From Deltaproteobacteria bacterium (lineage in GTDB: Bacteria; Desulfobacterota; Dissulfuribacteria; Dissulfuribacterales; QOAL01), in the NCBI GenBank assembly GCA_027028245.1, contig JALVJO010000038.1, positions 48,496 to 112,495 on the forward strand: DNA of 64,000 bases, written 5' to 3'. The notes below the pieces were generated by a model. That model was not told where the DNA came from and did not search any database. It saw only the letters and a list, made by a program, of their open reading frames with translations. Below, one piece after another: positions 3,013 to 63,219 of this stretch. The position numbers and the translations under genes were made by a program. Each line of letters begins with the position of its first letter. Within the stretch, counting starts at the first letter, position 1.

Positions 3013-4023
3013 TCAGTCCCGGGTTAAAACCCGTCCTCCACGGACAGCACGTACAAAATAACGCCTGTTCTTGAATCCGCCCCTGTAAGGCTTTCCGTTT
3101 GAAAAATCCACAACCCAGGCCATATAGGGTGCATCCTCGCAGGTCGTGCTAGACCAATAGGCTCCGGCCCTTGCTCCTGGAAAAAACCTGCTGTTTACAA
3201 GGGGCAGCTTATCACGGAAAACCACTATACTTAATAATTCCTTGATATTGGGAAGTCTCCAGTCTGTAAAACCCCCGAGCTGGAGACCTTGGCAATATTT
3301 TAGTGCCTGTTTCCATGTCATGGGTTCCTGTTCATCGGCCTGAAACATCAGGCCAGAGGTTTCATCAGTGACTGTTCCATTGGTGCTCTTTAGAAACCTT
3401 CCAGTGGTCAAAGACGCACCTTTTACCGCAAGAACCTTCAGTTTTTCATCTATGTCAAATATTTTTACCTCATTGGCAGCAGAGCAGTATCCAATGGCTT
3501 CCCGGGTATTTCCAAGACTGGTAACAGACCAGAAACAATCACTTACATCACCGGCTGCATTGAAAACAGCAAAGACTATTCCCTGGTCGGAACCGAATGA
3601 ACCAAGGGTTTCAAGTTCATATATAGTGGGAAGTCTCCACTTTTCTCCACTCTTACTACATTGGCTATCCACAGCATCCAGGGCCTCGCTCCAGGTTGCA
3701 CCCTGGGAGTTTATTTTCCTCCAGGTCAAACCAGTAACCTGATCCAATACGATGTACTCCTGACCCTGTTCAATCACCGAATAAGAAGGCTTATTGATGA
3801 GATAGTTTCCGTCTTCTCCGAAAAAGGCCTCACCGGGCTTAGGACATGGAATCAGCCTGGAATCGTCAAAACAATGTTGCTGGCCCGTATCCGGCAGGAA
3901 CATCTCGACAGCTGTGGTATTCGTACATTCAAGCCCGTGGTCCTGGTCACCAGCGTTGGCCTGAACAGTAATTATTCCTGCAGTCATGGTTACTGCAAGC
4001 CAAATATAAAGACACCTTTTCAT
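3013..4023 (-). CDS. DUF1566 (Lcl C-terminal-like) secreted protein
   Basis: Signal peptide MKRCLYIWLAVTMTAG; LPDTGQQHCFDD...CPKPGEAFFGEDGNY; WRLPTIYEL, WRLPNIKEL, AYWSSTTCEDAPYMAWVVDFSNG...YFVRAVRGG. Confidence 0.75.
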   Translation of the reverse strand: MKRCLYIWLAVTMTAGIITVQANAGDQDHGLECTNTTAVEMFLPDTGQQHCFDDSRLIPCPKPGEAFFGEDGNYLINKPSYSVIEQGQEYIVLDQVTGLTWRKINSQGATWSEALDAVDSQCSKSGEKWRLPTIYELETLGSFGSDQGIVFAVFNAAGDVSDCFWSVTSLGNTREAIGYCSAANEVKIFDIDEKLKVLAVKGASLTTGRFLKSTNGTVTDETSGLMFQADEQEPMTWKQALKYCQGLQLGGFTDWRLPNIKELLSIVVFRDKLPLVNSRFFPGARAGAYWSSTTCEDAPYMAWVVDFSNGKPYRGGFKNRRYFVRAVRGGRVLTRD

Positions 4024-4039
4024 GCCGTCTCCATGCCTG

Positions 4040-4882
4040 CTATTTGACGATACTGTGAGCCACACCGTGACACCTGCCGCAGGAACCGAATTTTTTGAAC
4101 ATGACAGAAGGATGAGGCTGGCCGTGGCATTGCCTGCACCTTTTTATGGTCTTGTGTTTGTCAGGATGACATCTCGTACAGGACAGGGCGGAATGTTTTG
4201 TTCGGCTTTTTTTCAGCATCTCGTAAGCCTTTCTGTGGCAGAGGGCACAATCCTCTGGGGATCTTTCATTGGAATACCTGACATTCAGTGCCTTGTGAGC
4301 TTGATGACATGCCTTACAGCCGTCAAGCGAAGTCGCAACCGGTTTGAAACCCGCCTTGACCAATACCACACCCTGATGAGGCTGGTGACATTCCAGGCAT
4401 TCCGGAATGTAACCATGCCTGGTGTGGTGACAAACCGTGCAGTGAAACTCAGAATGCTTGGTGGTAAAGGTCATGACCTCTTTATACAGCTTTTGGTGGC
4501 AGACCCGGCACCCCTCTGCCAGATACAGGGTTGCCGGGATATCAAGGGGAGTGTGGGCCTCAGTGTGACAGCTGCTGCAATCTGTCAACTCTTTCCCGTG
4601 CGGATGCCCATGGCACCTGGAACACTTGGGTAAAATATCCTGATAATCTGTCTTCCCCGGTTTATAAACGTGAAATTTCCGGTGGCAGCTCCTGCATGCC
4701 ACCCGTTTATGACCAGCCCCGTTTATCCTTAAAAGCTTTGCAATAATCGGATGACACCTCATACATTCCTGTCGTGTAAGCCTGTCAGGATGTGGAGGAT
4801 AAAGCCCATCTGCCCAGACAAATCCTGCCCCTGCCAGGAAACACAGCCAAAGGATAAAGACTGCCTGCAGGTTCATGGACAT
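4040..4882 (-). CDS. Twelve-heme c-type cytochrome
   Basis: 12 CxxCH motifs counted in the translation, N-terminal signal peptide. Confidence 0.85.
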   Translation of the reverse strand: MSMNLQAVFILWLCFLAGAGFVWADGLYPPHPDRLTRQECMRCHPIIAKLLRINGAGHKRVACRSCHRKFHVYKPGKTDYQDILPKCSRCHGHPHGKELTDCSSCHTEAHTPLDIPATLYLAEGCRVCHQKLYKEVMTFTTKHSEFHCTVCHHTRHGYIPECLECHQPHQGVVLVKAGFKPVATSLDGCKACHQAHKALNVRYSNERSPEDCALCHRKAYEMLKKSRTKHSALSCTRCHPDKHKTIKRCRQCHGQPHPSVMFKKFGSCGRCHGVAHSIVK

Positions 4883-60456: not shown

Positions 60457-60565
60457 ATTTTGTTTCAGGAAAAAGGATTAGGCAGAAGGAAAAGTGAATG
60501 GCGTTTTTGAGGCATTAGGCGGGCAAGCGCCTGGAAATACGAAAAACTTTTTTTCGGGGGTGTTT

Positions 60566-61222
60566 ATGATGAAAAAGATGGAAAAAGAAAGGAAAAAATG
60601 GGCGGGCGTCAAAATGGCTTTTTTGCCAGCTATATTTCTGGGCCTTTTGATGTGGACCGGGGCTGCCTGGGCCGCCGATTATAATCCTCTGCCCGACACC
60701 GGGCAGACCAAGTGCTATGATGAAGAAGGCAACGAAATAAATCCCTGCCCGGCCCCTGGCGATGATTTCTACGGCCAGGACGCAAATTACCAGGGTCTGC
60801 AGCCGTCATTCACTAAACACATAAATTTTAACGGCACCGGCGACGATGTAACTGTTGACAACAATACAAAATTGATGTGGATGACAGGCACTGCGGATAC
60901 TGACGGGGACGGGGATATTGATGGTGATGATAAAGTTGCCTGGCAGGATGCCGTTGATTACTGCGATGATCTTGTTTACGCAGGCTTTGACGACTGGTAC
61001 CTGCCTGACATCTTTATGCTTTTAACCATTGTAAATTATGGCACTTATAGCCCTGCCATAGACACCACGGTGTTTGACTGTGAGTTGTCCAATTACTGGT
61101 CTTCCACTACTGGCGCGTATAATGCCGATCACGCGTGGGACGTGCATTTCCGAAACGGCTACGACAATTGTTTCATTAAGACCAATTATTACTATGTCCG
61201 GTGCGTGCGAGACGGTTCTTGA
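60566..61222 (+). CDS. DUF1566 secreted protein with DGR-like C-terminal variable region
   Basis: Signal peptide; PLPDTGQTKCYDEEGNE; WYLPDIFML; VFDCELSNYWSSTTGAYNADHAWDVHFRNGYDNCFIKTNYYYVRCVRDGS*. Confidence 0.8.
   Translation: MMKKMEKERKKWAGVKMAFLPAIFLGLLMWTGAAWAADYNPLPDTGQTKCYDEEGNEINPCPAPGDDFYGQDANYQGLQPSFTKHINFNGTGDDVTVDNNTKLMWMTGTADTDGDGDIDGDDKVAWQDAVDYCDDLVYAGFDDWYLPDIFMLLTIVNYGTYSPAIDTTVFDCELSNYWSSTTGAYNADHAWDVHFRNGYDNCFIKTNYYYVRCVRDGS
61070..61211 (+). repeat. Candidate DGR variable region VR1
   Basis: Ungapped 142-bp alignment to 61895-62036 with 31 mismatches, 25 of them at codon positions 1 or 2. Confidence 0.65.
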
Positions 61223-61578
61223 GGGCATAAAGATCCATCTGATTCCGGCAAAGGAGGTAAAGCGTTCAACAGGCCGAAATCATTTTTTACATCGCTGAGT
61301 TTGACAGCGGCGTTGAGCCGTCAAAAAAAGTCATGGATTAAGAGTGTTTCTGGTTATTCTTCCAGGGAGCGGGCAAAGAGGCCGCGCGGGCCTTTCTCTC
61401 ATCACGGGGCTACGGAGCTTTAAGAGAGGCAATGTGGCTTTTACCATAGGTTTAAGCGGATTTCTTTTGAAGATAAGGCGGGCGGGCTTTCATGCTGTGA
61501 TAGTTGAGGAGGTGAAGTCTTTCTCAAAGGGCGTAGAACTCCAACCCCTGGCTTTTTATAGTTTGAAGGAGGCAAGGC

Positions 61579-63219
61579 ATGAAAAACTTTTTAATGATGC
61601 TGCTATGTTGGGTGGTTGTTTCAGGAGCAGGCCCTGCTTGGGCCATAGGGCCTTATGTTGATAATGGAGACGGCACGGCAACAGACCAGGGGACAGGTCT
61701 TATGTGGATGCAGTCCACGGCAGACATTAACGGGGATGAGGATATGGATGATAATGATAGACTTCCCTGGAAGGATGCCCTTGAGTACTGCGAGAATCTC
61801 AATTTTGCTGATTATACGGACTGGCGTCTGCCTAACGAGCGGGAACTCAGAAGCATTGTCAAAGACGATACCTTTAACCCTGCCATAGATCCGGTGTTTG
61901 ACTGTGAGTTGTCCCCGTACTGGTCTTCCACTTCTCTCGCGAGTGATGCCAGTTACGCCTGGTTCGTGAATTTCGCCGTCGGCGGCGATAATTGGCAGAA
62001 TAAGACCAATCATAACTATGTCCGGTGCGTGCGAGGCGGACTGTCCGGCAGTGGGCCATTTGATCTATCGATTATTTTAGCCGGCACAGGCGGGGGCACG
62101 GTAACCAGCAATCCCGCGGGCATAGATTGTCCGGGCGACTGCACGGAAAGTTACCCGAGCGGCCAGGCTGTCCAGCTCACGGCAACCCCTGATCCTGGAA
62201 GCGTGTTCTCAGGCTGGAGCGGGGATTGCGCAGGCACTGATCCTGATGTTACTGTTACCATGGATGGGGCAAAAAGCTGCACTGCTGCCTTTGATGTTGC
62301 TGTGTCTTCTTTCACCCTCACGGCAGCTGTTGATCCGGCAGGCGGGGGCACGGTAACCAGCAATCCCGCGGGCATAGATTGTCCGGGCGACTGCACCGAG
62401 GATTATAATGACGGAACCGCTGTTGCCCTTACGGCCAATCCGGCAGCGGACTATGCCTTTGACCACTGGACAGGTGATTGCGCCGGAAGTAACCCTGTGT
62501 GCGACCTTACCATGAACAGCGACAGGGATGCCACCGCCCACTTTGTCTGCACTGCCATAGGCGCGCCTGCTGCCAATGATCCAGGTAATACAATTTCCTC
62601 AGGCACAGCCTACCAGGTTAGCTGGGCTGCGGTTGATGGAGCCCAGGATTACGTGATCCAGGAGGCTACAGATGCAGCTTTTACCGCCATTGTGAGCACC
62701 CATACAGTTGCCACCACCCAGCAGCAATACACCCATGATGTTGCAGTGGATACCACCTATTATTACCGGGTGAGAGCCCGGCGGTCCTGCGGAAGCGAGA
62801 GCCCCTGGAGCAATGTGGTGGACATGACTGTGCTTACTCATGTACTTTCTCATTTTGACCTTACCGGCCAGTGGAATTGGTACTACAGGTTTGGCAACCT
62901 TATGTTGAGCGGTATTTTTGAGGTTCAAAACGTAGGGGACCAGGAATACCACGGCCTGGTCACCGTCGATTTTTATCTTTCCGATGACCGCCAGTTGGAT
63001 GGGAATGATCTCTTTCTTAACAGACGAACAGTAAATATTCAGGGTCATAGAACCCTGATATCTTCGTATGGGCATTGGTTGAGGGGGATATTGAGGTGGT
63101 GGTTGACGAGGAGAAGTTTGGGATTCCCTTCTATTCCCAATCAGATAATCGCCGTCATTGATCCTGACAATCTCATTGATGAAACCAATGAAGGAAACAA
63201 TGTTATTCCCAGTCCGTAG
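61579..63219 (+). CDS. Multidomain secreted protein: DUF1566 + two InlB-B-like repeats + Fn3-like + CARDB-like
   Basis: Signal peptide; WRLPNEREL; VFDCELSPYWSSTSLASDASYAWFVNFAVGGDNWQNKTNHNYVRCVRGG; two GGGTVTSNPAGIDCPGDCTE repeats; C-terminal CARDB-like HFDLTGQWNWYY...IAVIDPDNLIDETNEGNN. Confidence 0.8.
   Translation: MKNFLMMLLCWVVVSGAGPAWAIGPYVDNGDGTATDQGTGLMWMQSTADINGDEDMDDNDRLPWKDALEYCENLNFADYTDWRLPNERELRSIVKDDTFNPAIDPVFDCELSPYWSSTSLASDASYAWFVNFAVGGDNWQNKTNHNYVRCVRGGLSGSGPFDLSIILAGTGGGTVTSNPAGIDCPGDCTESYPSGQAVQLTATPDPGSVFSGWSGDCAGTDPDVTVTMDGAKSCTAAFDVAVSSFTLTAAVDPAGGGTVTSNPAGIDCPGDCTEDYNDGTAVALTANPAADYAFDHWTGDCAGSNPVCDLTMNSDRDATAHFVCTAIGAPAANDPGNTISSGTAYQVSWAAVDGAQDYVIQEATDAAFTAIVSTHTVATTQQQYTHDVAVDTTYYYRVRARRSCGSESPWSNVVDMTVLTHVLSHFDLTGQWNWYYRFGNLMLSGIFEVQNVGDQEYHGLVTVDFYLSDDRQLDGNDLFLNRRTVNIQGHRTLISSYGHWLRGILRWWLTRRSLGFPSIPNQIIAVIDPDNLIDETNEGNNVIPSP
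61895..62036 (+). repeat. Candidate DGR variable region VR2
   Basis: Partner of VR1 (61070-61211). Confidence 0.65.
62087..62144 (+). repeat. 58-bp exact intragenic direct repeat, copy 1
   Basis: caggcgggggcacggtaaccagcaatcccgcgggcatagattgtccgggcgactgcac; identical at 62339-62396. Confidence 0.9.
62339..62396 (+). repeat. 58-bp exact intragenic direct repeat, copy 2
   Basis: Identical to 62087-62144, spacing 252 bp (84 codons). Confidence 0.9.

Follow-up and report, generated by a model that had tools for sequence, protein, structure and literature searches.

Two Lcl_C lectin genes with probable DGR-type variable repeats in a Dissulfuribacterales draft assembly where no DGR reverse transcriptase was found

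The question raised by this locus is how two neighbouring genes come to share a 142-bp block that differs between them in the manner of a variable repeat (VR) of a diversity-generating retroelement (DGR), and where the mutator responsible might be. In a DGR an RNA template is copied with errors at its adenines, so that one part of a protein becomes randomised. Both genes lie in the window (the whole 64,000-nucleotide stretch of DNA that was analysed); their coordinates, and those of the paired blocks VR1 and VR2, are collected in Table 1. The draft assembly from which they come (G000 in our numbering) comprises 2.86 Mb on 205 contigs and is 96% complete, and the contig that carries the genes ends 0.8 kb past gene 2.

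Table 1. Features of the paired lectin genes and their repeats (window coordinates)
Feature	Position	Strand	Evidence
Gene 1, secreted 218-aa protein ending in Lcl_C (DUF1566)	60566..61222	+	ORF; PF07603 E 6.5e-29
VR1 (variable repeat 1), 142 bp	61070..61211	+	Pairwise alignment; template and control comparisons
VR1 3' end, invariant, A-poor, TATGTCCGGTGCGTGCGAG	61193..61211	+	Shared unchanged by VR1, VR2 and the two sister-species VRs
Possible decayed C-terminal avd fragment, directly 3' of gene 1, KAFNRPKSFFTSLSLTAALSRQKKSWIK	61256..61345	+	Best window match of DGR Avd profile, 1.8 bits, E 3.5
Gene 2, secreted 546-aa protein, N-terminal Lcl_C, divergent InlB B-repeats (Flg_new_2), weak CARDB match	61579..63219	+	ORF; PF07603 E 5.1e-32, PF18998 E 2.4e-26
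VR2 (variable repeat 2), 142 bp	61894..62035	+	Pairwise alignment; template and control comparisons
VR2 3' end, invariant, same sequence as that of VR1 (TATGTCCGGTGCGTGCGAG)	62017..62035	+	

Both proteins belong to the Pfam family Lcl_C (PF07603, formerly DUF1566), with scores of 101 and 111 bits against a curated cut-off of 34.9; their secretion was judged by eye from signal-peptide-like N-termini, and gene 1 has an alternative GTG start at 60494. VR1 forms the C-terminus of the gene 1 protein and VR2 is internal in that of gene 2, each gene remaining open and in frame across its block between flanks unique to it. The Lcl_C domain of gene 2, as predicted by an AlphaFold2 model (mean pLDDT 90.4), is a C-type lectin fold: its best PDB match in Foldseek is the C-terminal domain of Legionella pneumophila Lcl (8q4e; E 2.9e-4, TM 0.50; sequence profile E 2.8e-5), a likeness of fold and domain family only, and many C-type lectins match as well. 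The fold that the initial annotation had proposed for DUF1566 is upheld by this model and these matches, and the VRs thus lie in the kind of domain expected of a DGR target. Mtd, of the tropism-switching DGR of Bordetella phage BPP-1, is a target with the C-type lectin fold.

Other Lcl_C domains are present in the same genome. A third, tandem Lcl_C gene, which lacks the VR signature, lies at window positions 3013-4065 on the reverse strand. Elsewhere an Lcl_C block is split by a contig break: the end of contig C179 (L014 6443-7486) and the start of C13 (L012 1-1014) overlap exactly over 108 bp, a stretch that begins at the W of YWSST and ends at the framework's RC; parts of the framework, among them 27 bp at YWSST, are identical between the two Lcl_C domains of C179.

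VR1 and VR2 align with zero gaps and 31 mismatches, distributed 15/10/6 over the three codon positions, and 19 codons are changed, 17 of them nonsynonymously and two synonymously. The initial annotation had these counts right, and the gapless 142-bp pairing with them, but had set the second block one base too far along, at 61895-62036, a register that gives 111 mismatches. Among the 17 nonsynonymous codons, 13 have the same third base in both copies, a figure reached in 0 of 20,000 simulations with independent codon draws. The base-pair spectrum is uniform (AT7 AG6 GT5 CG5 AC4 CT4) and transitions account for 10 of the 31 mismatches; 14 of the 31 involve no A at all, five of these 14 being at third positions. 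As had been claimed from the first inspection, and as in DGR targets, the framework is shared down to its synonymous sites, with two synonymous differences among 23 same-residue codons. Block identity is 78%, against 63% in the upstream flank of gene 1 and gene 2, where 75 codons hold 32 third-position changes; since similarity between the genes drops markedly outside it, the block can be regarded as a shared module. At its 3' end, 19-22 identical bases give way to sharp divergence, a boundary of the IMH (initiation-of-mutagenic-homology) kind, and the invariant segment sits where the IMH segment of a DGR would, a role that it may well play. A downstream hairpin like that of BPP-1 was seen neither at VR1/VR2 nor in genuine DGR relatives, which makes this feature uninformative.

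That both copies derive from a template of AAY codons mutated at adenine, as had also been proposed, is not shown by the pair alone, in which 14 mismatches are free of A. DUF1566 is a common DGR target (PMC4159848, PMC6642488). A search for DGR-type reverse transcriptases (RTs) in 396 genomes of the phylum returned about twenty strong DGR RTs; in several of these DGRs almost every mismatch between template and VR is at a template adenine, and four (L082 in G224, L078 in G186, L076 in G347 and L083 in G214) target Lcl_C domains. These four share with VR1/VR2 the target domain, the framework YWSST...AW.V.F..G......K....YVR.VR and variable codons at template AAY codons, and the VR of L082 has the same length of 142 bp; they differ in that RT, template and avd adjoin the target. 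The RT of L078 (1069-2592, reverse strand) carries a C-terminal fused MutS domain I (PF01624).

When VR1 and VR2 are aligned with the L082 template (SNYWSSTTNANNTNNAWNVNFNNGNVNNNNKTNNNYVRAVR), which is heterologous and not their own, AAY codons of the template underlie 16 of the 17 nonsynonymous variable codons (enrichment of codons starting with AA, p 2e-7). The 33 mismatches placed on this template, a homologue rather than the source of the VRs, fall 26 times on its 47 adenines and seven times on its 88 other bases (p 2.6e-9), a strong enrichment rather than a strict confinement. Adenine is kept at 26 of the 47 template-adenine sites in VR1 and at 25 of the 47 in L082's own VR.

Natural variability of Lcl_C domains at these residues was controlled for with two such domains (d1 and d2) of another protein of the same genome, on C179. 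The odds ratio at template adenines is 2.7 for this control pair, 14.9 for VR1/VR2 and 90 for the genuine DGR pair of L076, and the changed codons with an unaltered third base number 7/15, 13/16 and 14/15, respectively. Outside template adenines VR1 and VR2 differ at 5 of 73 sites, all of them third positions, against 1 of 78 in the genuine pair. By these sequence comparisons VR1/VR2 are clearly DGR-like, though less clean than the L076 cassette and, at third positions, less clean than the Lcl_C DGRs of the phylum.

A sister species of the same genus (G002) provides a measure of how recently the blocks have changed. Its orthologue of the pair is a single gene with two Lcl_C domains and two VRs in the same order. 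In the 483 bp downstream of the VR, the backbone of gene 2 has nine differences from G002 (dN 0.011, dS 0.045), and the region of gene 1 upstream of VR1 is 92.5% identical, whereas the VRs are 72-74% identical to the G002 VRs (p 7e-5 and 3e-8), with dN 0.34-0.36, about 30 times that of the backbone. The four VRs of the two genomes are about equidistant (32-39 differences in 144), a paralogous VR in the same genome being no more distant than the orthologous VR in G002; one G002 VR has a 6-nt insertion. Because VR paralogues are as close as orthologues while the backbone is nearly unchanged, at least part of the copying apparently took place after the species split, from a shared template. This is evidence of rewriting between species rather than within a population. 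Rewriting so recent would place a mutator in the genus after the split.

Searches of the G000 assembly for that mutator were negative throughout. RVT_1 had no match at E<=0.001, and two DGR RT queries at relaxed thresholds found no DGR-type RT, the sole weak match being to the MutS part of a query RT. A template repeat or third VR copy was sought with a DNA query, with a degenerate pattern allowing three mismatches (the non-A framework of VR1, taken as template pattern, is TNCTGGTCTTCCNCTNCTNNNGCGNNTNNTGCC) and with a heterologous template, and only VR1 and VR2 were retrieved. A DGR Avd query reached E 0.07 and no Avd gene was found. Of a complete DGR cassette, G000 thus shows neither the RT nor the template repeat nor Avd, the last of which is common rather than universal. 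DGR-type RT, Avd and template were not found in the G002 assembly either; VR and template searches of IMG/VR and of phage and plasmid sequences returned nothing, and a single scan of genome contigs returned only a distant homologue in Chromatium okenii.

Several candidates for the missing components were rejected. The possible avd remnant 3' of gene 1 (Table 1) is below significance and is a weak lead at most. A 23S_rRNA_IVP (S23-type four-helix) protein on C196, considered as Avd, adjoins restriction-modification-type genes and has no repeat nearby. The sole RT of G002 (on C67), which is CRISPR-associated, and the RTs of G014 and G018 lie beside or are joined to Cas1/Cas2-type genes and have QG...SP motifs, and so do not count as DGR RTs. 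On C67 of G002 (L051 1-2830), where Cas names were assigned by eye, the RT and a Cas1-like part share one open frame, followed by Cas2-like genes, the whole lying at a contig start.

Under the refutation test set by the initial annotation, the missing RT and template would tell against its proposal; given a fragmented draft and a contig that ends so soon after gene 2, they are not counted as a refutation here. The locus is not classed as a DGR, since both were searched for and not found; the blocks are described as DGR-type variable repeats on account of their sequence behaviour. We put at about 0.82 the probability that VR1 and VR2 owe their sequence, as variable repeats, to a DGR acting in trans on two Lcl_C target genes. 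Such a DGR would reverse-transcribe a single adenine-rich (AAY-rich) template, making errors at its adenines, and the mutagenised cDNA would replace the C-terminal part of each lectin domain, presumably by mutagenic retrohoming; about 17 putative ligand-face residues, with a probable role in ligand binding, would be randomised while the scaffold is kept. The signature, the match to the template adenines of a genuine Lcl_C DGR, the post-split rewriting and the fold all argue for this origin. Against it stand the lack of RT, Avd and template in either assembly, the third-position differences, the 14 A-free mismatches among 31, the 6-nt insertion and the heterologous nature of the template used. 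The initial annotation had made both genes targets of one DGR with its template and RT elsewhere in the genome: the first half is sustained by the template-adenine match, the weaker control and the fold, and the second half has not been, as the assembly yielded no RVT_1, no DGR-type RT and no further copy of the repeat.

For a DGR acting in trans, the RT, Avd and template may sit on an element, perhaps a mobile one, that escaped assembly or binning, or may have been lost recently with orphan VRs left behind; these we consider about equally likely. Related genomes bear on both. Two tandem VRs in G018, of the same family, also show the signature (odds ratio 14.4), and G036, of the same order, has at least five Lcl_C VRs on C68, C113 and C158 (L122, L139, L123), including the pair C68a/b with the adenine signature (odds ratio 22.4) and a C158 VR 75% identical to VR1 over 93 bp; no DGR RT was found in either assembly. 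Some G036 VRs, unlike VR1 and VR2, are followed by a recognisable start of avd (its first 20-30 residues), which is then disrupted. Two share a decayed tail, GGL*.ILIFEYLVIFMARYE(H/R)LPIF, corresponding to the start of avd, which suggests from sequence that duplication of the VR-avd unit preceded its decay or accompanied it. Elsewhere in the order, G035 has a DGR on C26 (L121 4412-6155) with template and VR, 21/21 mismatches being at template A, an avd with a stop and an RT that reaches the contig end, and G045 has a DGR RT fragment at a contig end. DGRs therefore occur in the order, and draft assemblies cut them.

That a DGR of the genus has since been lost, both VRs now being fixed and evolving conventionally, is a version of the trans-acting reading that we find quite possible, if short of even odds. 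It would suit the absence of a DGR-type RT from all four VR-bearing assemblies (G000, G002, G018, G036), the avd fragments that stand beside VRs in G036 and the third-position differences between VR1 and VR2. These last cannot be used as proof of frozen VRs, a use contradicted by the low backbone dS between species. Moreover, the rewriting postdates a split of dS about 0.02-0.05, so that the machinery was there recently and would have to have been lost in both lineages, and a cassette can be missed in fragmented drafts. A wider conjecture, which we think unlikely, has the DGR residing not in the host chromosome but on an exchangeable plasmid, phage or integrative element, from where it would act in trans on lectin VRs across the order, the mutator coming and going while the host keeps the targets.

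The two blocks could also have arisen without a retroelement, in ordinary paralogues whose lectin ligand face is under strong diversifying selection and whose framework is preserved by gene conversion. This would agree with the failure to find an RT or template and with some third-position changes, and Lcl_C domains at large, C179 d1/d2 among them, vary at the same positions; that control pair, however, has the signature weakly. Selection on paralogues fits poorly with the many codons in which positions 1 and 2 changed jointly and the third base did not, with a uniform spectrum in which a third of changes are transitions, or with the excess of VR over backbone dN between sister species, and gene conversion would erase variable sites rather than spare them; we regard this origin as distinctly improbable. 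A chimera of misjoined reads from several strains deserves next to no weight: although a contig break does fall within another Lcl_C block (C179/C13), neither reading frame is interrupted at its block, the two blocks have different, unique flanks, and two VRs occur in the same order, independently, in G002.

Against this background the trans-acting reading can be compared with the BPP-1 DGR (Brt, Avd, TR, mtd; AY029185), whose VR, of comparable size (134 bp), likewise occupies the C-terminal end of its target; that system has been expressed in laboratory E. coli (PMC12875486). Unlike that system, VR1 and VR2 are on a bacterial chromosome, in two secreted Lcl_C targets, with no RT, Avd or TR found. 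Comparable as well are the VR-avd remnants of G036, likewise Lcl_C VRs, one pair of them with the adenine signature, and no RT. A large DGR survey states that targets remote from the RT escape its detection (PMC8144416). What is new here is that a target pair was recognised without its retroelement and validated by the templates of relatives, and that VR sets without an RT recur in the order. Recognition used the VR signature alone, and four genomes whose assemblies lack a DGR RT carry that signature. If confirmed, this would mean that surveys undercount DGR-diversified proteins, and recent VR rewriting without a resident RT would raise the question of whether the mutator has been lost or is travelling.
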